Virus record (IMG/VR): IMGVR_UViG_3300025949_000053 | Coordinates: 1-39,029 of that record | Origin: a virus | Strand: one strand, 5' to 3' | Length of the DNA: 39,029 nt | Part shown: one piece after another, positions 2,776 to 22,379 of the stretch | Layout: every line of letters begins with the position of its first letter | Numbering within the stretch: the first letter of the stretch is position 1 | Notes under the pieces: generated by a model | Seen by the model: only the letters and a program-made list of their open reading frames with translations | What the model was told of the DNA's origin: nothing | Database searches by the model: none | Translations under genes and position numbers: made by a program

Positions 2776-5700
2776 ATGTCAAAAAAAATAATAAATCTTC
2801 CATCTGGCTCAATAAATGATTCTTCTATAGGATTTATAGGAGATCCAAATACAGGTGCATTAACAGAGACAAGTTATCGTGCAATGAAAGATTATTTCCA
2901 AAATGGAATATCATCTTTATTAACAGGATCTTATGTAACTACAGGATCTTTTAATAATTTTTCATCAAGTTATAATAACGATTCTAGTTCATTTTATAAT
3001 AATGATAAGAACATATATTCATCTCAAAGTGGATATACTACAACATCATCTTATAATCCTTTTACTGCTTCTTATTTTGTAGATTCTGGTTCATTCGATA
3101 TCAGAATCAAAGCCATTTCTGGATCTATACCATCTGGATCATATATAACTACTACAACATTCGGTGTATTTAGTGCATCCTACGTAATAGATTCATCTTC
3201 TATTAATCAGAAGTTGGTAAATATTAATGCATCAGAAAGTAATTATGTTCCAACATCATCCTATAATCCTTTTACTGCTTCTTATTTTGTAGATTCTTCT
3301 TCCTTTTTAAATAAAATTAATAACGTTTATTCTTCAGAAAGTAATTATGTTCCAACATCATCTTTTAATATTTTAAGCAGTTCAATAAAAAATGATTCAT
3401 CTTCAATAGATACTAGAATAAATAATGTTTATTCTTCTGAAAGTAATTACTTACCTACAGGTTCTATATTAGGAAGTAATAATTATATACCTATATATAG
3501 TGGATCAAAAGGATTTACTTTTGGTTTACTTTATTATTCTGGATCTTCACTTTTGATCAATCAAGTGAATGGTCTTAATAATGCCCTATTGCAGGTAGCT
3601 GGACCTGTATCTGTAAACGATACTTCATATTTGTTATTACCTCGTGGTACTACTGCTCAAAGACCAACAGGTTCTTTTGCTATGATTAGAGGAAATACCG
3701 AAACTACTAATATTGAATTTCATAATGGTGTTGGATGGATTTCTTTAGGAAGTGGAAGTGGAATATTTGCTAGTGGTTCTGTAACTTCCGTTGGATTATC
3801 ATTACCTTCTTCATTATTCAGTGTTTATAATTCACCAATAGTTGGTGCAGGAGTTTTATCTGCATCTTTAAATACTCAAAGTGCAAATCTTGTATATGCT
3901 TCTCCAGTCGGAACATCTGGAATCCCTATTTTTAGAACTTTGGATATTACCGATATAGCCGCTCTTACGTCGTCATTTATTGCTGGATATGTTTTAACTG
4001 GTTCTTTCAACACATTTACATCATCGTATTTTATAGATTCTGCTTCAATATTAATAAACATCGCAAATGTATTTGCAAGCGAAAGTAATTATGTTCCAAC
4101 ATCATCTTATAATCCTTTTACTGCTAGTTATCTTAACACCTCAGCTTCGATAAATAACAGTCTAAGCAATGTATACGCTTCTGAGTCGAATTATCTGCTC
4201 ACTTCTTCATTTTCAAATTTTAGTTCGTCTTACCTAAATGACTCTAGTTCATTTTTAACTAGAATTATAAATGTATTTGCTTCCGAAAGTAATTATGTTC
4301 CAACATCATCTATAATAGGCAATAATAATTACTTACCTGTATTCACCGGATCTTCTGCGATAACACAGAGTTCCATATATCAATCTGGTAGTTTTATAAT
4401 ATTAGGAAGAACAGGATCAATAAATAATAGTTTATTACAATTATTTGGTTCTATATATATATCTGGATCTATATATGATTCTTCAAATTCAACTGGATCT
4501 GCAGGACAAATGTTAGGTTTTGCTCCAGGTGGAATACTTTGGATTTCTACTGGATCTGGTGGATGGAATCTTTCAGGAAACTCAATTTCTTCTGGATCGT
4601 TTCTAGGCTCTACAAATGCTCAGGATCTTATATTTAAAAGAAATAATGTTCAAGTTGGGGCATTTTTTACTAATAATAATATCGTTTTTGGTAATTCAAA
4701 TAATAGCACGACAGGATCAAATGCTATAGTATTGGGTGGTGTTAATAACTTTGCCAACAATATGGCGGTTGTTATTGATGGTGCTAATAATAGCGCGATT
4801 GGTAATTCTTCAGTAGTCGTAGGAGGTCAAAGTAATATCACTCCAGGAGTCGGATCTGTTACTTTAGGTGGTATAAATTTATCAGCATCTGCAGCATATG
4901 CCGTTGTATTGGGTAGATTTAATGATCCAATTGCTTCGTCTAATCAATCTTCATGGATTGGAGGTGATCCGATTTTTATAATAGGTAATGGAAGTTCAAC
5001 AGGATCATTATCTAACGCTTTTGTTGTTAATAAAACGGGCAGCATAGTATTATCTTTTTATGCCAATACTTCTAGTGCCGTTCTTGGTGTTGACAATAAT
5101 GGTAATATTGTTAATATGCAGGTTGTGTCTCAATCTGTTTATAATATAGATTCTTCGTCATTCAGTAATAGAATAAATAACATATTTGCTTCTGAATCTA
5201 ATTATTTATCAACCGCATCATTTAATATATTTAGCTCTAGTTTTCTTACTTATTCATCCTCTACAGATGTTAAAATAAATAATGTATATGCTTCTGAGAG
5301 TAATTATTTACTTACATCTTCATTTAATAATTTCATAAGCGGTAGTTCAGGACAAATAGCATTGTTTAATACTCCTCATAGTTTAACATCGAGTCTAATA
5401 AATCAACTAGGTAATTCTATTATATCTATATCTGGTGCAATTATACAACCAACTAACTTTACTCCGTCTGTTACTAATACGGTAGCTTTTGGATTTAATA
5501 ATATTTTATATGGATCAGGATCCTTTGCCCACGGTTTTAACAATACTGTAAATTCATATATAGGTCATGCTGAGGGTTCTAATAATGCTATTAATGGGGT
5601 AGGAGCACATTCTGAAGGAACAGGAAATACTGCTTATGGTGATTATTCTCATGCTGAAGGTTCCGGAAGTATATCCTATGGGTTTGGATCACATACTGAA

Positions 5701-11815: not shown

Positions 11816-12250
11816 ATGAAATATATATTAATTTTAATAATTTTTTTATCTTTTAAAAGTATAGCCCAAGTTCCTAATAATTCCTGGACATTAGAAAGTA
11901 ACTATAGATTTCAATCTTTATATCGTTTAGATACATCTTCTAAAAAAGATAATAAAGGACCGGCATTGAATAGTATTTCTTCCAAAAGAGATACTATTAG
12001 TGTATCTTTCAAATTGGATACATCTGTTCGTATGATTTATAGAACTTGGAATTGGTTAGGTAAATCAAGAACTAGTAAATTTCATTATATATCTTGGGAT
12101 AATTGGGAAACCAGTAAGCATAATCCACAATATGAAAAAGGAGTCGTTTATTTCCATATTAAAAGTAGAGGCGATATTGAATGGCATCCAAATGAGATTA
12201 TTATATGGAATAATACTTTTAAAGGATTTAGAATAGAATATTTCAAATGA
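11816..12250 (+). CDS. Small secreted protein of unknown function
   Basis: This 144-aa product has a signal peptide (MKYILILIIF through SIA-Q, predicted cut after Ala17). The mature part is rich in Trp, Tyr, Lys and Ser (WTLESNYRFQ, RTWNWLGKSRTSKFHYISWD), with a strand-like pattern compatible with a small beta-rich domain. I do not recognise a family. It ends in an ATGA overlap with the esterase/beta-helix gene, so the two are probably made together and may act together outside the cytoplasm. The overlap and the shared signal-peptide style are direct observations; any partnership is inference. Confidence 0.6.
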   Translation: MKYILILIIFLSFKSIAQVPNNSWTLESNYRFQSLYRLDTSSKKDNKGPALNSISSKRDTISVSFKLDTSVRMIYRTWNWLGKSRTSKFHYISWDNWETSKHNPQYEKGVVYFHIKSRGDIEWHPNEIIIWNNTFKGFRIEYFK

Positions 12251-14907
12251 TTAAGAAATTATTTTTTCTTTTACTGTTTTTACCTATCATAGGATTCAGT
12301 CAGTCGGAGACTCATGACATGATTACCTATGATACCACTATTTCGATTTTCAATGCGCCATTTGGGCCTACTAATATATGGAATATAAGAATTACTCGTC
12401 CTCGTAATTATTTTACTGCAGGCCACCCAGATACAGCATCTCGTCCGGCTATTATTACAATGCCAGGTCAGGGTGAATTAGGTACTACTGATACAAGTAA
12501 ATTGACTGTATATGGTCCTCATTTTTGGTTAAAAAATGGATGGGATGGAGGTATACAATTGGGTAATGGTAGACACTATCCTTTATTAATTACTGTGTGT
12601 TATACTAATTCTGTAAATACATATGCAGCAGATGTTCTTAATATAGTAGATACATTAATAAAATTCTATCATATTAAAGCGAGAGGTAGACACTTTGCCG
12701 GATTATCGGAAGGAGCATTTACTTGGGGAGCTTTAGTATGTTTTGAAAAATCTGCTGGAACAGAAGATGGTATGAGTCGCATGACTTCTCTTGTAGCTCT
12801 CGAAGGTACTCCAAATCCAGCTATTAATTCATGGGATAGACGACAAGGTGCTTATAAAGTATGGGCAGCTAAATATGGTGGTAAGTATTTTTATTTAGAA
12901 GGTAATGGCTCGGATAATTTCCGAAATGGTTATCTTTGGTCACAACCTATGAATGATACAGTTCCAGGATCCGCTTATTTTGCTTGGGAAACTCTTGGAG
13001 GGGGATCACATTGCTGTTGGAATTCTATGTATGATCCATCTGTAACAAATTGGAGCACTATTCCAGTTATAGGACCTAATATTGGTACAGGACCAGCACC
13101 AAATACGCAGGGAACCTATCGTACCGGTCAAAATATATTTACTTGGATGCTTGCACAGGGCGATACTACACTAGTTGGACCTACATGTAATCCAATTGTT
13201 ACACCAGGATCTAATCAAACAATAACTTTACCGACAAGTTCATCATCTATTTCTGCAAGTGTTACATATCAATGCGGAAATACAGCATCAAATATAGTTT
13301 GGAGTCAAGTTAGTGGACCAAATAATGCTAGTATAACATCTCCGAATTTATTAACTACTGGGGTTGCTGGACTTATTCAGGGAACTTATGTATTTAAAAT
13401 AACTGTAACTGATAATACTTCATTAACTGGAACTGCTACGGTTCAAGTTACTGTTAATTCTTCTACAAGATCACCGATGAATTTTACTTGGCCCTCAACA
13501 AATTCTAATATATTAATTAATAATACAACATTTGGAGTATCTTTAATGGGAGGAGATACAGTATTTATTCCAGTTAGATCAGGAGGATATAGAAGTTTTA
13601 CAATAGATCGTATTGGTACTAGATCCGAAGGTAAATATATAACTATAGTTTGGCAAAATGGATCATTTATAACTCCTAACACATCATCACCATTGGGAGC
13701 AAATAGCATAGATTCATCATTTTGGGTTCATATATATAATTGGACTATGAATGATAATATAGATGTTGCTTTTACTTCTTATGCCAATTTGGGATATTCA
13801 CAACATATTTGGATTGATCATTGCACATTTAGAGGAATGAATGGATTTTTCCCATCAAGTCCTAGATCATTCGCAACTCTTCCAAATTTTACTGGAGATA
13901 CAATAAATTGTTTTTATAAATGGAGATGGAGTTATTGTACTTTTGATTCTTTAGTTGGAGCAAATTCAGGTAATACAGCTATTTACATCGGAGCTTTGGC
14001 TAAAAATCAGACATGGATAAATGTTGAAATAGATCATGATAAATTTGGAGATTATTCAGCTTTATCAAATCCACCAACATACATTTTTGCATATAATGTA
14101 TATGGAATATATATACATCATGATAGTCTTTGGAATTTTGGTATGAATGTTCCTAATCCAAGAGGTCATGCTGCTATGTTATTTTTAAGAATGTCTTATT
14201 TCGAAGTTTACAACTGTTGGTTTGGCACAAATAATTTTGGTAACTGCGTTCGAAATTGGGGTGCAGCTGATATTCCGTCTATGTTTAATTTATTTTCATT
14301 ATGGAGTACAGGATATAATGGAAGAAGTAGAGTTTATAATTGTATAAGTGATAGTTCGAGAAAATATCCATTTTTAGAATGTCAATCACATCCAGGAGAT
14401 ACATCTTCATTATCACCATATATTAGAGCGCGAACAGTTCCAGAAGTTTGGTTTATTACATTACGTCATCAAGGTCTTGGGATTGGAAATGATCCATATG
14501 TACCAGGATTTGATTTCTATGATCATGATTCACTTTTTGTAAAAAATTGTTATTTAGTAGGACCTACTGATACAGTTTGGACTGCTTGTAATTTTGGAAC
14601 CTTAAATCAAGGATGTAATAAATTCATAAATAATCCTGGAAGTACAATAGTATGGGATACAGCTGCTACAAGATTTGTGCCTTCTATTCCATTAATAGGT
14701 CTACAAGATAGTACATTTTTCATACCTACAACTACCGGTATGTTATATAAACAAGGTATTCCAGGACCTACCTATACTTCTTTAGATTATTATGGAAATA
14801 CGAGAGATGCAGTACACCCTAATATAGGATTTGCTGAAACAATTGATATTATTAAAAATTATTTGATTATACCAAGAAGTTATAGAATTAATATCATTAG
14901 TAATTGA
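12247..14907 (+). CDS. Secreted three-domain protein: alpha/beta-hydrolase, Ig/PKD-like, beta-helix
   Basis: This 886-aa protein has a signal peptide (MIKKLFFLLL through IIGFS-Q, predicted cut after Ser18). Residues of about 30-305 look like an alpha/beta-hydrolase or esterase: the nucleophile elbow is GLSEG with Ser154, an Asp could come from the NGSDNF region near 223, and GGGSHCCW provides a candidate catalytic His255. About 316-404 is a PKD/REJ-like Ig domain (NQTITLPTSSSSISA, WSQVSGPNNASI, GTYVFKITVTDN), familiar from Bacteroidota secreted proteins. About 410-880 looks like a right-handed beta-helix (WIDHCTFRGMNGFF, YFEVYNCWFG), reminiscent of polysaccharide lyases or phage spikes. It may both de-esterify and cleave a host polysaccharide; the substrate and whether it is on the virion are unknown. 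It is the last gene of the secreted cassette and overlaps the previous one (ATGA). Confidence 0.7.
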   Translation: MIKKLFFLLLFLPIIGFSQSETHDMITYDTTISIFNAPFGPTNIWNIRITRPRNYFTAGHPDTASRPAIITMPGQGELGTTDTSKLTVYGPHFWLKNGWDGGIQLGNGRHYPLLITVCYTNSVNTYAADVLNIVDTLIKFYHIKARGRHFAGLSEGAFTWGALVCFEKSAGTEDGMSRMTSLVALEGTPNPAINSWDRRQGAYKVWAAKYGGKYFYLEGNGSDNFRNGYLWSQPMNDTVPGSAYFAWETLGGGSHCCWNSMYDPSVTNWSTIPVIGPNIGTGPAPNTQGTYRTGQNIFTWMLAQGDTTLVGPTCNPIVTPGSNQTITLPTSSSSISASVTYQCGNTASNIVWSQVSGPNNASITSPNLLTTGVAGLIQGTYVFKITVTDNTSLTGTATVQVTVNSSTRSPMNFTWPSTNSNILINNTTFGVSLMGGDTVFIPVRSGGYRSFTIDRIGTRSEGKYITIVWQNGSFITPNTSSPLGANSIDSSFWVHIYNWTMNDNIDVAFTSYANLGYSQHIWIDHCTFRGMNGFFPSSPRSFATLPNFTGDTINCFYKWRWSYCTFDSLVGANSGNTAIYIGALAKNQTWINVEIDHDKFGDYSALSNPPTYIFAYNVYGIYIHHDSLWNFGMNVPNPRGHAAMLFLRMSYFEVYNCWFGTNNFGNCVRNWGAADIPSMFNLFSLWSTGYNGRSRVYNCISDSSRKYPFLECQSHPGDTSSLSPYIRARTVPEVWFITLRHQGLGIGNDPYVPGFDFYDHDSLFVKNCYLVGPTDTVWTACNFGTLNQGCNKFINNPGSTIVWDTAATRFVPSIPLIGLQDSTFFIPTTTGMLYKQGIPGPTYTSLDYYGNTRDAVHPNIGFAETIDIIKNYLIIPRSYRINIISN

Positions 14908-14915
14908 TATTTATA
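14906..14915 (+). promoter_or_regulatory. GATATTTATA intergenic motif (candidate phage promoter)
   Basis: The motif starts at the stop codon of the esterase/beta-helix gene and lies 26 bp before the holin-like ATG. It is the same motif as at 15491, 15501, 19024 and 20083. AATATCA just upstream can pair with its TGATATT, so it is also half of a weak hairpin. A promoter role is inference. Confidence 0.4.
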
Positions 14916-14941
14916 ATAGTAACCAAACTAAATTATTTTTT

Positions 14942-15196
14942 ATGACTGAATTTTTTAAAAAAATAGTAAATGTAGAAATACGTAATATTTTGGCTGTGAT
15001 AATTACATTAGGAGTTTTTATTCTTTTGTATTTGCTAACAATAAAGCCAGTACCTCCTGAGAACAAAGATATAATGTATGCTGCTATTGGATTCGTTTTC
15101 GGTGGAGCATTCTCTGCTGTAGCAGGTTTTTATTATGGAGCATCTAAAACTGCTCCGATAGATAATGTAAATAATAATTCCGTTATAAAGTCTTAA
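14942..15196 (+). CDS. Holin-like small membrane protein
   Basis: This 84-aa protein has a short charged N-terminus (MTEFFKKIVNVEIRN), a first hydrophobic segment at about 16-35 (ILAVIITLGVFILLYLL), a loop containing PVPPENKD, and a second Gly/Ala-rich segment at about 48-68 (AAIGFVFGGAFSAVAGFYYG). The tail is polar. Two membrane segments, small size and a position between the host-recognition and tail modules fit a holin, the inner-membrane protein that times lysis. No endolysin gene lies next to it, so the lysis role is inference and another small inner-membrane protein is possible. No Shine-Dalgarno sequence precedes the ATG; the leader is AT-rich and carries the GATATTTATA motif. Confidence 0.55.
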   Translation: MTEFFKKIVNVEIRNILAVIITLGVFILLYLLTIKPVPPENKDIMYAAIGFVFGGAFSAVAGFYYGASKTAPIDNVNNNSVIKS

Positions 15197-15550: not shown

Positions 15551-17818
15551 ATGGCTGGAAGACTTCTATCACCTGGCGTTTTTACACAAGAAACAGATTT
15601 ATCTGGTGTAGCATCGGGTATTTCTCAAATTGGTGCTGCCTTTGTGGGACCAACTTTAAAGGGACCTGCATATGTACCAACACCAGTGTATTCCTTTTCT
15701 GATTTTACTGCTCAATTCGGCCAGGAAACTCCAACTAGTTATATACCTTATGCTGTAAGAAATTATCTAAAATCTGCACCTGTAGCAACAATTGTAAGAA
15801 TTTTAGGAGATGGGGGATGGGGTTTTGACGGAACTTCTAGGAAATTGGCAGCTTTTGTCAGTGGAAGCTCTGTTTTATCGGTTTTACATCCAAGTATTAA
15901 CGCAAATGATGGTGCAGCGGAACTTTCGGCAACACTTGCTACGGGTAGTTTGAATAGTTTTAATTTATATGTAAGTGGAAGCTCGGTCAATTATCAGGCA
16001 TCTTCTTCTTTGAATCCTACAAATAACAATTATATCACAAAGATATTTGGTAATAGTCCTTCTTTTAAAACAGGATCGGCATTTCCTTATTTGTTATTCA
16101 ATAATTATTTATCTGCTTCTGTTGCTATAGGTACTTCTTCTTATTCTGATCAGGCTACTCTTATTTTGAGTAGTGCCCCTTGTACTTTTACAAGTTCAAA
16201 TCAAGGTGGATATAGTGAGGCTATAACCCCGTGGATCATTTCAGAAGGTGGTGTAAGATTATTCAGATTTCATCATATATCTCCTGGAAATGACTCTAAT
16301 ATTGACGTGAAATTAGCTATTGCTGATATTTCACCTAGCACAGTAGATGGAGTATATAGTACTTTCTCTGTTCTTTTGAGATCTTTCAATGATACAGATA
16401 ATGTCCCCTCTATTGTAGATCAATTTAATAATCTTACAATAGATCCGGATGATGCCTCTTCTTATATAAGCCAAAAAATTGGAGATGAATATAGTAAATA
16501 TGATTCAAATATACAGAAAGTAATTGATTATGGAGATTATCCTAACAATTCTGCTTATGTATGGGTAGAGGTAAGTGATGCTGTAAAGAATGGGTCTATT
16601 GATCCGAAGGTATATCCTGCAGGATTTGAGGCTGTATATGAAACAATCACAGGATTTGTAGGATATTCATTGCCTACAGCTAGTATGGTTTACAGTACGG
16701 CTAGTTCTGTGATATATTCTGGATTTAATTATAATAATACAGATAATCTAAATTATCTTAATCCTATTCCGAAAGAAGCTACTCAAGGTAATAATTCCAA
16801 TTTTATACTTCCTGCGGGAGATGACAAGTTCCTTGTCCCTTTCCAAGGTGGATTGGATGGTATGAATTATACCGTTATTAAAAATACAGGTGCTAATATA
16901 ACTCCAAGTAATTTATTTGGATTTGATCTTAGTACATCTACTGCACCAGGAACTCTTTCTTATATTCGTGCTTTGGATATATTATCTAATGTTGAACAAT
17001 ATGATATGAATCTGTTGGTTATGCCGGGTGTTATTAATACATTACATCCTTATGTGGTTCAATATGGTCTTAGTACAGTAGAAAGTAGAACAGATGCGAT
17101 ATATATCCCAGATCTTTGTGGTCAAAATGATACGATTGCTACTGCTAAAGCTAGTGCAGCTTCGTTGGACTCTAATTATGGAGCAGTATATTATTCATGG
17201 GTTAAAATAATTGATAGCTCTAATAATAAAAAAGTGGCTGTTCCGCCTTCTGTAGTTATACCACAAGTAATTGCTTACAATGATTCAGTCGGTCAAGAAT
17301 GGTATGCTCCTGCTGGTTTAAATAGAGGTGGAATTTCAGGGGTTGTTGGTTTGGTTAATAAACTATCGGAGAAAGAAAGAAATGTCCTGTATCCGGCTAA
17401 AATTAACCCTATAGCTAATTTCCCAGGAACTGGTATTGCTGTATGGGGTCAAAAGACACTTCAAAGTGCAAATACTGCTCTTAATAGGATCAATGTTCGT
17501 AGATTGCTTATCAATCTTCGTAAATTCTCAGCATCTGTTGCAAAATATCTTGTATTTGAAGGTAATACTACTCAAACAAGAAATAAATTCTTAAACGCTG
17601 TAAGACCTTATTTCTCTTTTGTCCAATCTAAACAAGGTGTTTATGCTATCCAGGTAATAATGGATGAAACTAATAATACTGCTGATGTTATCGATCAGAA
17701 TGAATTAGTCGGCGAAATAAGAGTATGGCCAACTAAAACTGCGGAATATATCGTATTGAATTTTACAATAAACCCAACAGGAACTCTTATTTCTAATGGT
17801 ACAGTTGTTTCACAATAA
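15551..17818 (+). CDS. 18: Tail sheath protein (T4 gp18 family)
   Basis: This 755-aa protein opens with MAGRLLSPGVFTQETDLSGV and then GAAFVGPTLKGPAYVPTPV, the typical N-terminal signature of contractile sheaths. The C-terminal part has the conserved handshake/core region (GLNRGGISGVVGLV, NPIANFPGTGIAVWGQKTL, NVRRLLINLRK, TAEYIVLNFTINP). The sheath polymerises around the tail tube and contracts to drive it through the host envelope. Length is slightly above T4 gp18 (659 aa), with the extra residues in the less conserved middle domains. The tube gene follows 26 bp later, the usual sheath-tube order. A tandem promoter-like motif precedes it. Identification is secure. Confidence 0.95.
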   Translation: MAGRLLSPGVFTQETDLSGVASGISQIGAAFVGPTLKGPAYVPTPVYSFSDFTAQFGQETPTSYIPYAVRNYLKSAPVATIVRILGDGGWGFDGTSRKLAAFVSGSSVLSVLHPSINANDGAAELSATLATGSLNSFNLYVSGSSVNYQASSSLNPTNNNYITKIFGNSPSFKTGSAFPYLLFNNYLSASVAIGTSSYSDQATLILSSAPCTFTSSNQGGYSEAITPWIISEGGVRLFRFHHISPGNDSNIDVKLAIADISPSTVDGVYSTFSVLLRSFNDTDNVPSIVDQFNNLTIDPDDASSYISQKIGDEYSKYDSNIQKVIDYGDYPNNSAYVWVEVSDAVKNGSIDPKVYPAGFEAVYETITGFVGYSLPTASMVYSTASSVIYSGFNYNNTDNLNYLNPIPKEATQGNNSNFILPAGDDKFLVPFQGGLDGMNYTVIKNTGANITPSNLFGFDLSTSTAPGTLSYIRALDILSNVEQYDMNLLVMPGVINTLHPYVVQYGLSTVESRTDAIYIPDLCGQNDTIATAKASAASLDSNYGAVYYSWVKIIDSSNNKKVAVPPSVVIPQVIAYNDSVGQEWYAPAGLNRGGISGVVGLVNKLSEKERNVLYPAKINPIANFPGTGIAVWGQKTLQSANTALNRINVRRLLINLRKFSASVAKYLVFEGNTTQTRNKFLNAVRPYFSFVQSKQGVYAIQVIMDETNNTADVIDQNELVGEIRVWPTKTAEYIVLNFTINPTGTLISNGTVVSQ

Positions 17819-17844: not shown

Positions 17845-18333
17845 ATGTCGATTCTGGACCCTAACGAAATTATGTTTACTGCTTTTCAACCAAAGGTAGC
17901 TAACCGTTTCTACATGTATATTGATGGAATTCCATCCTACATTATTAAAAAAGTCACTTCTCCCCACTTTACTGATGCAGAAATCAAAATTGATCATATC
18001 AATACTTATTTCTTCGTAGCTGGTAAAAGAGAATGGCAGGATGTAACAATGGAATTATACGATCCTATTACACCTTCAGGACAACAAGCTGTAATGGAAT
18101 GGGCTCGTCTTTGTTATGAATCTGTTACAGGACGTGCTGGTTATTCTGATTTCTATAAAAAAGATATTACACTTGAACTGGTTGGACCAGTTGGAGATAT
18201 AATCGGAGAATGGAAAATGATAGGATCTTGGGTGAAAGATGCTGCTTTTGGCGAATTGGATTGGTCTGCAGGTGATCAAGCTTTGATGATACCTATTATT
18301 TTGAAAATGGATTATTGCGTCTTGAATTTCTAA
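17845..18333 (+). CDS. 19: Tail tube protein (T4 gp19 family)
   Basis: This 162-aa protein has T4-type tube features: the N-terminal PNEIMFTAFQPKVANRFYMY followed by IDGIPSYIIKKVTSP, the EWQDVTMELYDPI strand region, and a C-terminal QALMIPIILKMDYCVLNF strand. It forms the inner hexameric-ring tube through which DNA passes. Length equals that of T4 gp19 (163 aa). It directly follows the sheath gene and has an AT-rich leader without Shine-Dalgarno. Codon use looks slightly less AT-skewed than in the fibre genes, as expected for a highly made virion protein. Confidence 0.93.
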   Translation: MSILDPNEIMFTAFQPKVANRFYMYIDGIPSYIIKKVTSPHFTDAEIKIDHINTYFFVAGKREWQDVTMELYDPITPSGQQAVMEWARLCYESVTGRAGYSDFYKKDITLELVGPVGDIIGEWKMIGSWVKDAAFGELDWSAGDQALMIPIILKMDYCVLNF

Positions 18334-18345
18334 TTTAACAAACTA

Positions 18346-18942
18346 ATGAAAAAATTTAAAGACCTAGTAAGAGAATGTTATAAAGAGATCCTTAAAGAAG
18401 AATTAACGATTCCGTCTCCGGATGGAACTTCAGATTCAGCATCTGAAGAAAATAAGCAGAAAGCTAAAGATGCTACTAAAAATGGAGATGATGTAAAATT
18501 CGTAAAGCCTGGTGAATTAGAAGAAGGTTCATCGGAAGAAGGAGAACTTAACGAAGAAGAAATTGCTCCCAAAGTATCTGAAGTATTCGCAACTCTTCAA
18601 GGATTGTCTGAAGATGTTAATTCATTAAATGAATTTGCAGAAGCTAATAAAGACAAGAAACTTGAAAAACTTTCAGGAAAATTAGCTAAACATTTACATG
18701 AAGCAACCAAAGTTATTGCTGAAATGAAAGATGCAAGAGATGCTATCTTGCAAGAAGATGCTGAAAAAGCCAATATATTTGGTGATAAGGTAGTCAAAGC
18801 TCTTGGTAAATATTGTAAAGATGAAAGTCATGGAAAGAAAATCAAAGAAAAATATATGCCTTATATAGCGAAAGCTCATAAGAAAGGCAAAAAGCCTGCC
18901 GAAGTTGCAGAACGTATTAAGGATCATAGATTTGAACTATAA
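18346..18942 (+). CDS. Acidic helical protein with capsid-targeting-like N-terminus
   Basis: This 198-aa protein begins with MKKFKDLVRECYKEILKEE, an amphipathic helix. It continues with a Glu/Asp-rich linker (about 20-75), a helical middle (about 80-150) and a Lys-rich C-terminus (HGKKIKEKYMPYIAKAHKKG, HRFEL). The N-terminus loosely resembles the capsid-targeting sequence of T4 internal head proteins (MKTYQEFIAEA). That points to a packaged internal protein or scaffold-associated protein, but similarity is only in pattern. It lies 12 bp after the tube gene and before a terminator, so it ends the sheath-tube transcript. No enzyme motif is visible and I do not recognise a family. Confidence 0.6.
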   Translation: MKKFKDLVRECYKEILKEELTIPSPDGTSDSASEENKQKAKDATKNGDDVKFVKPGELEEGSSEEGELNEEEIAPKVSEVFATLQGLSEDVNSLNEFAEANKDKKLEKLSGKLAKHLHEATKVIAEMKDARDAILQEDAEKANIFGDKVVKALGKYCKDESHGKKIKEKYMPYIAKAHKKGKKPAEVAERIKDHRFEL

Positions 18943-18950
18943 AAATTGTA

Positions 18951-18988
18951 TCAGAACTCGTAATTCTGAGCTACCTTCGGAATCAGAA
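18951..18988 (+). promoter_or_regulatory. Alternative-pairing hairpins ahead of the terminator
   Basis: TTCTGA (18964-18969) can pair with TCAGAA on either side: 18951-18956 (7-base loop) or 18983-18988 (13-base loop). The second choice touches the first bases of the terminator stem. This may be a simple 3'-end structure or a switch-like element. Confidence 0.35.
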
Positions 18989-19015
18989 ACCTCCGCTTAG
19001 ACCCGGAGGTTTTTC
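18987..19015 (+). terminator. Rho-independent terminator after the tube operon
   Basis: AACCTCCG (18988-18995) pairs perfectly with CGGAGGTT (19004-19011) around an 8-base loop, flanked by one more A-T pair and followed by TTTTC. This is GC-rich in an AT-rich genome, so a real intrinsic terminator is likely. Confidence 0.85.
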
Positions 19016-19051: not shown

Positions 19052-19816
19052 ATGGCTTATCAAAAACCCACACAGGTTATTCCTCTTCCTTCAAAAGGTC
19101 TTATATACGCGAAAGACAATCCATTAAGTTCTGGTACAATAGAAATGATGTTCGGCGGAGCCGCACAAGAAGATATTTTAGCGAATGATTCTTTCAAAGA
19201 AGAAGGAACTACGATGACTCGTTTGATTAAATCGCTGATCGTATCTAAGATAAATTATGACGATATCATTGTTGGTGATAAAAATGCTATATTTGTAGCT
19301 TCTAGAATACTTATGTTTGGTAAGTATTATGATTTAAATTATCTTTTACCAGGAGAATATAAACCAAAGCAAATAAAAGTAGATCTTACTACGATTAAAG
19401 ATAAGTCATTTAATGAATCATCTATTCAACCTGGCAAGAATGAATTTGAATTTGTGTTACCTATAACAGGTGTAAATATAACTTATAAATTATTAACTCA
19501 TAAAGATGAGGAATCGATTGCTACAGAAATTGCGGCAATGAAAAAGCATTATAATGAAGAAAACACCAAAGAAGCTTCTATACATTGGTATCATAAAATT
19601 GTAGCCGTAAATGGAGATAGATCTACCGCCGCAATTAGAGACTTTGTAAATAATGGATTGATAACGATGGATTCAGTTGAATTGGGTAAAAATATGTATG
19701 AAAATTCCCCTGGTATAGATTTTAAATTCGATTATATCTTAGAAAACGGCGAGGTATTGGAGGGCCTTCCGTTACCAATAAATACTACCTTTTTTCGATC
19801 TCCATATCTCCTATAA
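19052..19816 (+). CDS. T4 gp26-like tail assembly chaperone/baseplate protein, zero-frame product
   Basis: This 254-aa frame has an N-terminal IPLPSKGLIYAKDNPLSSGT, then EDILANDSFKEEGTTMTRLI, and GDKNAIFVASRILMFGKYYD, which I recognise from the T4 gp26-type base plate protein family. It lies just upstream of the tape measure gene, the classic place of tail assembly chaperones, which coat the tape measure before tube assembly. In the zero frame it ends in FFRSPYLL, which looks unlike a natural end; a well-formed coding frame continues in +1 to 20072 (separate entry), giving about 339 aa. So there are probably two products, short and long, as in other tail chaperone pairs. A T-homopolymer sequencing error is the alternative. 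The gp26 family call is likely; the chaperone role is inferred from position and frameshift. Confidence 0.75.
   Translation: MAYQKPTQVIPLPSKGLIYAKDNPLSSGTIEMMFGGAAQEDILANDSFKEEGTTMTRLIKSLIVSKINYDDIIVGDKNAIFVASRILMFGKYYDLNYLLPGEYKPKQIKVDLTTIKDKSFNESSIQPGKNEFEFVLPITGVNITYKLLTHKDEESIATEIAAMKKHYNEENTKEASIHWYHKIVAVNGDRSTAAIRDFVNNGLITMDSVELGKNMYENSPGIDFKFDYILENGEVLEGLPLPINTTFFRSPYLL
19790..19796 (+). other. Candidate +1 frameshift slip site (TTT TTT CGA)
   Basis: In the zero frame the codons are ACC TTT TTT CGA. Sliding a Phe tRNA from TTT (19793-19795) to TTC (19794-19796) moves reading +1 into GAT at 19797. The +1 frame has a stop at 19779-19781 and the zero frame stops at 19814, so any shift must fall in this short window. 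CGA is often a slowly read codon, which would favour slippage. A -2 shift would give the same frame plus one extra Phe. Confidence 0.6.
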
Positions 19817-20072
19817 AAAAATATTATATGATGAGATCGATTTTTTAGTTAGAGAATCCAAAGGAGCTTATACTTTTACGGATGCTTACGAAATGCCGAC
19901 TTATCTCAGAAAGTATTATATAATGAAGATATCTGATGAAAATCAGAAACTTGCAGATGAAATAGATAAGAAAAACAAGATATTAACCAGTACAACGGAT
20001 CTTTCAAAGAGAGTTCCTCCTAAAAAACGATCAAAATCAGAAGCATATGTTACAAAAGCCGGGAAAAAATAG
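19797..20072 (+). CDS. Frameshift extension of the tail assembly chaperone (+1 frame)
   Basis: This 91-codon frame reads DLHISYKKILYDEIDFLVRE, SKGAYTFTDAYEMPTYLRKY, then a charged helix (IMKISDENQKLADEIDKKNK) and a Lys-rich tail. The 'DAYEMPTYLRKYY' part resembles the 'MPxYxRxYF' motif near the end of long tail-chaperone products and gp26-type proteins. There is no ATG, GTG or TTG start until ATG 19893, which would remove the best-conserved part, so independent initiation is unlikely. It joins the upstream frame at the T6-CGA site. The open frame has good phage-like codon use over its whole length. Its stop lies inside the hairpin at 20055-20082. Confidence 0.75.
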   Translation, partial: DLHISYKKILYDEIDFLVRESKGAYTFTDAYEMPTYLRKYYIMKISDENQKLADEIDKKNKILTSTTDLSKRVPPKKRSKSEAYVTKAGKK

Positions 20073-20082
20073 CCCCGGCTTT
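20055..20082 (+). terminator. Hairpin at the end of the chaperone extension
   Basis: AAAGCCGGG (20055-20063) pairs perfectly with CCCGGCTTT (20074-20082) around a 10-base loop that includes the stop codon. The U tract is only three bases long, so termination may be partial. The next GATATTTATA motif starts directly after it. Confidence 0.6.
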
Positions 20083-20092
20083 GATATTTATA
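20083..20092 (+). promoter_or_regulatory. GATATTTATA motif before the tape measure gene
   Basis: A perfect motif copy lies between the hairpin and the tape measure ATG (20097), only 4 bp away. If it is a promoter core, the transcript would be nearly leaderless; otherwise the start codon or the motif's role needs another explanation. Confidence 0.35.
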
Positions 20093-20096
20093 TTAT

Positions 20097-22379
20097 ATGG
20101 CTACAAATCAACCCCCTAATCAGAATCAAACCATAGATGAACTCCAAAGCATCCAGGCCAATCTATTAAATATTAATGATCAATATAGAGAATGGAATAA
20201 GCAAGCACATATATATAATTCTAGTACTATTGACACGATGAAAAAGACTACGGAATTAAATAAATTAATTTCCAAGTCTTTAGATATTTCATCAAAAATA
20301 GGGAAAGAACTTATCAAGAGAAAGGATACAAAAAGATTAATTAATCAACTTGAAGCAGAATCTAATAAATTATCAAGATCCTATCAGACTACTTATGAGA
20401 AATTAACTAAATTACAACAAAAGCAGGTTGATCTATTAGGTCAACAGCAGGATCAATTTAGATCTCTTACGAAAGAATCTGATCAATTAGAATCAGATTA
20501 TTTGGAAGCTAAAGAGAATCAAGTAGAAACTTTTGAAAAGTTATTAGACTTAGAAAATAAAGGTCTTAAAAATACTAAACAATTTGTAGATCTTGAGAAA
20601 CAATTTAACAATTATTCTCAACAAGTTCTGGATAACCAAAATGAAAAAATTAATGTTGAATCAAAGATTCAAACACTAAATAAGGAAATAGCAAAAGCAT
20701 ATAAGAACCAAGCTGTATCCACCGCTCTTGTTCAAAGAACACAAGCAGAAGCGGCTAAAAATGTTTTAAATGTAACCAGATCATTACCAAAAGAAGTTGA
20801 ACAAGGTAATAAAGCATTGCAAAAGCGAAACTTTCTACAAGAAGCTTTTTCACGAGTTCCTATTTTAAAAAACATGAAAATGCTTCCAAAACACATGGAA
20901 GATTTTGGTTTAAAAGGAACGTTGGCATTAGGTATTATTGGAGGTATAGCTGCTGGTATTGGAAAGATAATTCAATTAATGTTTAAAGCTGATTCTCAGA
21001 TAACTGATATACAGAAGAGTTTTTCAGTTTCCAGAGAGAGTGCTAAAGAATTACGTCAATCATTTTATGAGATCGCGGAGAATGCTTCGAAGTTTGCCGA
21101 TATACAAAAAGAAACCTTAATATCCGAAGAAGATATTTTCAAAACTCAATTGGAATTTAACGATGCTTTCGGTACTGCTATAGCTTTGTCTGGTCAACAG
21201 GTTGTACAATTAACAAAGATTAAGGATTTAATTGGTGTTAGTGAAGAAGGTTGGAAGAATATAATGACATATTCTCTTCAATCTAATAAATCAGTAGAAA
21301 ATATAGATAGAACGATACTTGGAACATCCAGGATTATACAGGCTCAATCTGGTGTATTACTTAATAACAAACAAATTCTTGATTCAGTGTTAAAGGCTTC
21401 TGGAGGAATAAGAGCTAATTTCAGAGGAAATGTTGAACAACTAGCTAAAGCTGTAACACAAGCAAAATTATACGGCACTTCTTTAGAAGAAATTCAAAAG
21501 ACTAGTGATTCCTTATTGGATTTTGAAACATCTATTGAATCACAATTAGAGGCAGAATTACTTATTGGTAGAAAGATCAATCTCGAAAGAGCTAGAGCTG
21601 CAGCCTTGAATGGTGATATGGTGACAGTTATGAATGAAATGGTAAAACAAGCCGGAGATTTTGATCATTTCATGAAGTATAATATCATTCAACAACAATC
21701 TCTCGCTAAGGCTTTTGGATTTAGTAGAGATGAAATGAGCGACATGTTGTTTCAACAGAAAGCTATTGAAGGATTGAGAAGACTTGGTAATAATGCAGAA
21801 AAGAAATCTTTGGTTGAAAGATACGAACAGTTGGTTAAGGAGGGAAAAAGTAGAGAGCAATTGGAACAAGTTTTAGGGGCTGAGACGGAACAACGTTTAG
21901 CTACCCAATCAGCTCAGGAAAGATTTAATAAATCTCTTCAAAAATTAGAAGATATATTTTCCAGATTATTTGAAGGAGGTCTTATACAAAAAGTTATTTC
22001 AGGAATAGCCAGTGCTGCAGAACATTTGTCATCTGGTGGATCTTTGTTGGGTATTTTGACAAATTCCGAATCTTATCAAGCGGCCAAAGCTAGAGTAAGT
22101 TCTCAAATTGGGAAAGTTCAGGATGGAGTTATTTCTCCACAAGGAGTAATTATGATATCAACTCCTCGTGGACAGATTGCAACAAATCCAGGTGATTCTG
22201 TCATAGCAACATCAAATCCTTCGTCTGTATTAAATGGAGGCAATTCATCGATAAATACAAAAGCTGTAGAAGCCAAATTAGATAAATTGATAGAATTATT
22301 CTCCAAAGGAAGAGGTATCTATTTGAATGGTCGTCAAATAGGAACGGAATTAGCTATTAGCTATAATCCCACAGCATAA
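20097..22379 (+). CDS. Tail tape measure protein
   Basis: This 760-aa protein is mostly helical: residues of about 5-240 are coiled-coil-like and Gln/Glu/Lys-rich. A hydrophobic, Gly/Ala-rich segment at about 271-295 (ALGIIGGIAAGIGKIIQLMF) could insert into a membrane. The middle is helical, and the C-terminal part has GVISPQGVIMISTPRGQIAT and ends in GRQIGTELAISYNPTA. The architecture, and the place just after a frameshifted tail chaperone, identify it as the tape measure, which sets tail length and is ejected with DNA. T4 gp29 has 590 aa; at about 1.5 angstrom per residue this one predicts a tail near 110 nm. The initiator ATG has no Shine-Dalgarno. A direct sequence match to gp29 could not be seen. 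Confidence 0.8.
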   Translation: MATNQPPNQNQTIDELQSIQANLLNINDQYREWNKQAHIYNSSTIDTMKKTTELNKLISKSLDISSKIGKELIKRKDTKRLINQLEAESNKLSRSYQTTYEKLTKLQQKQVDLLGQQQDQFRSLTKESDQLESDYLEAKENQVETFEKLLDLENKGLKNTKQFVDLEKQFNNYSQQVLDNQNEKINVESKIQTLNKEIAKAYKNQAVSTALVQRTQAEAAKNVLNVTRSLPKEVEQGNKALQKRNFLQEAFSRVPILKNMKMLPKHMEDFGLKGTLALGIIGGIAAGIGKIIQLMFKADSQITDIQKSFSVSRESAKELRQSFYEIAENASKFADIQKETLISEEDIFKTQLEFNDAFGTAIALSGQQVVQLTKIKDLIGVSEEGWKNIMTYSLQSNKSVENIDRTILGTSRIIQAQSGVLLNNKQILDSVLKASGGIRANFRGNVEQLAKAVTQAKLYGTSLEEIQKTSDSLLDFETSIESQLEAELLIGRKINLERARAAALNGDMVTVMNEMVKQAGDFDHFMKYNIIQQQSLAKAFGFSRDEMSDMLFQQKAIEGLRRLGNNAEKKSLVERYEQLVKEGKSREQLEQVLGAETEQRLATQSAQERFNKSLQKLEDIFSRLFEGGLIQKVISGIASAAEHLSSGGSLLGILTNSESYQAAKARVSSQIGKVQDGVISPQGVIMISTPRGQIATNPGDSVIATSNPSSVLNGGNSSINTKAVEAKLDKLIELFSKGRGIYLNGRQIGTELAISYNPTA

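Follow-up and report, generated by a model that had tools for sequence, protein, structure and literature searches.

The gp26-like gene of this virus record has the tail tube gene on one side and the tape measure gene on the other, the latter adjoining the chaperone pair as it does in other tailed phages. It very probably makes two proteins by means of a +1 frameshift at TTT_TTT_CGA: a short form (TAC-N) and a long form (TAC-NC), as judged from sequence comparison. The window, by which we mean the whole stretch of 39,029 bases that was analysed, also carries a sheath gene of the T4-type tail set, and its gene order (tail tube, chaperone, tape measure) is the same in phages immuto, SP-15 and LIS04 (Table 1). 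Sequence comparison supports a join that is conserved, its slip site, a shift in the +1 direction and homology to both T4 gp26 and T4 gp51; that the shift takes place at a useful rate, the tRNA step behind it and a division of labour between the two forms are what we infer.

Table 1. Coordinates of the chaperone gene, its slip site and the neighbouring tail genes in the window, and of the two T4 paralogues
Feature	Position	Strand	Assignment or basis
Sheath gene, T4-type tail set	15551-17818		
Tail tube gene, upstream context	17845..18333	+	PHROG 4542 tail tube protein, E 1.8e-21
gp26-like gene, 0-frame product 254 aa	19052..19816	+	Short tail assembly chaperone (TAC-N, 'G')
Slip site TTT_TTT_CGA	19790..19798	+	From sequence
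+1-frame extension, 91 codons plus TAG (TAC-C, 'T')	19797..20072	+	Translation; relatives' HMM
0-frame stop TAA closing the short form	19814..19816	+	From sequence
Tape measure gene	20097..22379	+	PHROG 1293 tail length tape measure protein, E 2.5e-4
T4 gp26 (in L020)	3803-4429	-	Paralogue of gp51
T4 gp51 (in L020)	4480-5229	+	Paralogue of gp26

An earlier note on this DNA had claimed that the gp26-like frame stops while a frame shifted by +1 stays open well beyond it, that this second frame is itself closed by a stop at 19779, that it has no usable start before an ATG at 19893 and that a tape measure gene follows. ORF coordinates and a frame scan bore all of this out: the 0-frame product ends in INTTFFRSPYLL*; the +1 frame, closed by a stop codon at 19779-19781, stays open between 19782 and its TAG at 20070-20072; within it no ATG, GTG or TTG comes before the ATG at 19893, by which point 32 codons of the extension have passed; and the tape measure gene starts at 20097. 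Under a Markov model of the window, an open run this long from a given point has a probability of about 5e-4. Homology is the stronger evidence that the extension is coding, as an extension profile that was built without the window matched the +1 frame alone among 468 window ORFs (E 1.5e-16).

Homologous loci were gathered through internal gp26 motifs, which kept their selection independent of the slip site. In each locus we located the 0-frame stop and measured how far the two remaining frames ran on beyond it. After removal of duplicates, 104 distinct +1 loci were obtained, with identities down to about 20-30%, and they share both the frame break and a conserved slip site, which supports the earlier placement of the shift at the TTT TTT run. 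In the IMG/VR set of the window (same family), the +1 continuation was found in 76/76 informative loci, i.e. those not cut by a contig end; contigs from GTDB MAGs gave 13/13. Apparent exceptions among the loci (L049, L053, L083, L098, L102, L103, L109, L133 and L153) are all truncated by contig ends. The same break is present in the cultured phages immuto (Flavobacterium), Mel-JY01 (Microcystis), SP-15 (Bacillus) and RM378 (Rhodothermus), as well as in Streptococcus phage SagM-GXN1 and Listeria phage LIS04, and none of these six is annotated with a joined gene. A single uninterrupted frame uniting the N-part and the extension was looked for in about 190 homologous loci and found in none, and the 0-frame ORFs in two 80-locus IMG/VR sets were all 229-253 aa long. 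The second slip codon and the 0-frame stop are 4-8 codons apart in the relatives.

Most of the 104 +1 loci carry TTT_TTT_TGG (71), followed by TTT_CTT_T (11), TTT/TTC_TTT_CGN (10) and others, and the A-site codon is TGG in 77 of them, CGN in 10 and TAC in 9. The first slip codon is TTT in 99/104 loci, with TTC avoided (P 5e-6), and the second is TTT in 90 and TTC in 2 (P 2e-7), both against a background of 79% TTT, although these binomial P values overstate independence because the loci are related. The base before the codon pair is C in 71% of the main +1 set. In the gp26-like gene of the window, TTTC and TTTT each occur in the 0 frame at the slip spot and nowhere else, and CGA, at 2.4 per 1000 codons, is rare in the window. 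RNA structure downstream of the site did not exceed background (mean z -0.44 vs -0.5 in the control), and no Shine-Dalgarno-like stimulator at +1 spacing was present in the main +1 set.

In the mechanism that we propose, most ribosomes would stop at 19814 and release the short gp26-like chaperone, and a minority would slip one base forward at TTT_TTT_CGA with tRNA-Phe in the P site. The peptidyl-tRNA-Phe would move from UUU (19793-19795) to UUC (19794-19796), a better match, during a pause in which the rare CGA in the A site would be slow to fill. The slipped ribosomes would then read on to 20072 and produce the long form, which by translation is join(19052..19795,19797..20072), 339 aa. By analogy with lambda gpG and gpGT, the two forms may divide the labour of assembly, the short form coating the tape measure protein and the extension recruiting tail-tube subunits.

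The gp26-like product matched PHROG 150 (baseplate hub; E 4e-7) and PF12322 (E 6e-4, below the curated cut-off), and T4 gp26 (9e-64) and residues 1-201 of T4 gp51 (4e-52) each match PF12322 over its whole length. Profiles of the N-domain (G) and of the extension (T) were labelled p for the main +1 set, s for the SP-15-like +1 set and m for the -1 set described below. The N-domains are linked in a chain (Gp-Gs 3e-42, Gs-Gm 3e-28, Gm-gp26 5e-21, gp26-gp51 9e-19), and the extensions are connected by Tp-Tm (3e-11) and by Tm and the gp51 C-terminus (2e-6); the direct comparison of Tp with gp51 was not significant (0.3), so that this link passes via the -1 set. Residues 147-246 of gp51 also match phrog_634, the family of the KVP40 mini-ORF. 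By these profile matches, T4 gp51 is a gp26-like domain plus what is probably the same extension in a single frame. Considering the homology of the gp26 and gp51 N-domains together with the gp51 extension, T4 would encode each of the two forms by a gene of its own, which fits an earlier account that treats both proteins as chaperones of hub assembly and calls gp51 essential but of unknown function (PMC3004832). The suggestion of the earlier note that gp26 relatives are the chaperones of this group is supported and, going by the citation of Vladimirov, Gautam and Davidson 2022 in PMC12846349, is already published for T4-like phages.

The AF2 model of the N-domain (pLDDT 95, pTM 0.90) matched predicted gp26-family proteins of SP-15 (5e-17) and VH7D (8e-6), and the gp51-type model had a pLDDT of 88. 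Foldseek searches of the PDB gave no significant match for either model; for the N-domain, the only PDB matches with a probability above 0.1 were two chains of the HK97 tail assembly chaperone gp13 (2ob9), which were weak (E 2.2, prob 0.21); the T4-type gp51 model did not reproduce them.

The same join is found in the -1 frame in a sister set of 77 loci, made up of cyanophages, KVP40, Agrobacterium Atu_ph07 and 73 IMG/VR loci. T_TTT precedes the site in 76/77 of them (background P 5e-28), and 72/77 have the canonical heptamer T_TTT_TTC. An ATG lies just past the slip in many -1 loci, often 1-6 codons from it, and none is nearby in some; this early ATG is the reason for annotating a separate gp51 in those phages. 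Many -1 loci also have a Shine-Dalgarno-like GGAGG some 10 nt upstream, but a role as a -1 stimulator was set aside, as the motif can be explained by a conserved Leu-Glu-Gly. Three further loci, L015 (LR756511) and L197/L198, have the extension in the -1 (or +2) frame with no clear poly-T slip site near the stop. In the N-domain tree, the +1 main group makes up one side of a branch (89/88), and a 100/99 branch separates it from the cyanophage/T4 side. L192 and L194 (about 4200-4460) have T_TTT_TTC and a -1 continuation, yet fall on the +1 side of this tree. At least two changes of the -1 label are forced by well-supported branches; L012 and L017 sit on long branches, which leaves the details unsure. 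We lean, by a narrow preference, towards one gene family using the same Phe-Phe codon pair that shifts +1 in one large clade and -1 in another, and is replaced by a gene duplication in T4. Its direction would have switched more than once, steered by single flanking bases: a T before the pair would favour -1, and the lack of this T together with a slow UGG, UAC or CGN after the pair would favour +1.

Several other readings of the join had to be weighed. Since the T6 run is a homopolymer in a metagenome contig, one might suspect that faulty sequencing or assembly at this run has broken up a single gene, but two other IMG/VR contigs (L002, L003) retain the six T and are base-identical to the window across gene and extension, and the same join recurs in complete genomes of cultured phages and in more than 100 divergent loci; independent contigs and cultured relatives refute this error in practice and leave it a negligible probability. 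A shift of -2, in which the P-site tRNA slips two bases back in the T run and one extra Phe is added, enters the identical frame, and perfect -2 re-pairing within T6 or T7 is available at 87/104 sites, the window included, so that at T6 or T7 sites re-pairing does not by itself tell the two directions apart. However, +1 re-pairing of the P-site codon is free of mismatches at 104/104 loci, and -2 re-pairing is imperfect in 17/104: in 5 of those (L011, L188, L189, L190 and L095, with TTC_TTT_CGT, TTC_TTT_CAT or TTC_TTT_CCA) the middle base is mismatched at -2 and pairing is perfect at +1, and 12 CTT/CTA sites also fit +1 better. Since none of the 104 sites favours -2, we regard this direction as improbable, and the earlier preference for +1 gains from the TTC_TTT_CGT-type sites. 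RNA polymerase slippage on the T run, through which some transcripts would regain one frame, would suit the T6 or T7 of most sites; the same join is nevertheless retained at sites such as TTC_TTT_CGT, TTT_CTT_TGG and TTT_CTA, where T runs are <=3 or 4, and such variants without a long T run argue against slippage in transcription, to which we give very little credence.

The extension could also be a protein of its own, made from a non-canonical or coupled start, in the way gp51 is annotated in cyanophages and KVP40. The early ATG codons of the -1 set, whose mini-ORFs are annotated as gp51, point in this direction, as does the overlapping ORF annotated in Mel-JY01. Against this, the first ATG, GTG or TTG of the window is 32 codons inside the conserved domain, the median first ATG of the +1 loci is likewise 32 codons past the slip, 42/104 of these loci have no ATG, GTG or TTG in the new frame upstream of the slip, and no independent start was consistent across the homologous loci. 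A separate start would moreover leave the slip-codon bias and the T_TTT_TTC heptamer without a role, and T4 gp51 physically fuses the N-domain to a probable counterpart of the extension. We therefore consider separate initiation to be quite unlikely, marginally more so than a -2 shift, and retain a +1 frameshift as the probable source of the long form.

Other observations concern the surroundings of the gene. A terminator-like hairpin (11 pairs, then a T run) lies at window positions 18985-19014, between ORF 18346-18942 and the gp26-like gene, so that the chaperone gene may have a transcript of its own; in SP-15, a terminator is annotated at the equivalent place. The ORF at 18346-18942 (198 aa), between the tail tube and gp26-like genes, had no significant family match in Pfam or PHROGs. 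At 20058-20085, right upstream of the tape measure gene, the stop codon of the extension falls within an inverted repeat, AAGCCGGG...CCCCGGCTT; the repeat was spotted by eye and is absent from the output of the terminator scan. Elsewhere in the window, a +1 frame is open for 107 codons (14872-15196) from the end of gene 12247-14907 into ORF 14942-15196, which has its own ATG, and this opening is probably just the next gene.

Against the open-access literature that we searched, what looks new is that a +1 mode is conserved across a broad clade and that the direction changes at a single site. This novelty is limited by the 2022 work on T4-like phages, as far as its citation describes it, and by a +1 proposal at TTT-CGC in HF1-group haloviruses (PMC7230728). 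Frameshifts in tail chaperone genes determine how much of one assembly protein is made relative to the other, and most are -1 shifts. A conserved +1 mode in more than 100 divergent phages whose sisters shift -1 provides a natural comparison of what determines the direction of frameshifting in bacteria, with UUU_UGG, CUU_UGG and UUU_CGN sites as an assayable set. Annotations would also need correction, as the GenBank records that we examined (immuto, SP-15, LIS04, RM378 and Mel-JY01) either lack the long chaperone or break it up.

The +1 site of bacterial prfB is CUU_UGA, and the CTT_TGG and CTT_TAC variants of the relatives would likewise slip from CUU to UUU; unlike in prfB, the A-site codon of the relatives is not a stop, and a conserved Shine-Dalgarno-like stimulator was not found at their sites. 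Influenza A PA-X (UCC_UUU_CGU) and the amalgavirus +1 motif UUU_CGN (Firth 2012; Nibert 2016; cited in PMC5644247 and PMC7230728) share, as those citing papers present them, the UUU_CGN core and a proposed slip of P-site tRNA-Phe from UUU to UUC, but they belong to eukaryotic RNA viruses, whereas the window is from a tailed DNA phage and most of its relatives have TTT_TGG rather than TTT_CGN. In the HF1-group haloviruses, the shift at TTT-CGC was proposed between two chaperone CDS (PMC7230728), and the TTT_CGn site type and the position before the tape measure gene are alike; these are archaeal viruses, and the comparison with the window covers site type and position. In T4-like phages, TAC genes with poly-T -1 signals have been identified, according to the citation in PMC12846349 (Vladimirov, Gautam and Davidson 2022), and T4 gp26 (TAC-N) and gp51 (TAC-NC) resemble the window in their homologous N-domain and, for gp51, in joining it to a probable counterpart of the extension; T4 differs in using two separate genes, as do cyanophages and KVP40 in having a -1 site where the window has a +1 site. 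Lambda gpG/gpGT, known along with other tail chaperone frameshifts (PMC5009743; Xu, Hendrix and Duda 2004), has the same layout of a shared N-part and a frameshifted C-part just before the tape measure gene, but lambda shifts by -1, whereas the window would shift by +1 and has an N-part of the gp26 type (PF12322/phrog_150) of about 250 aa.
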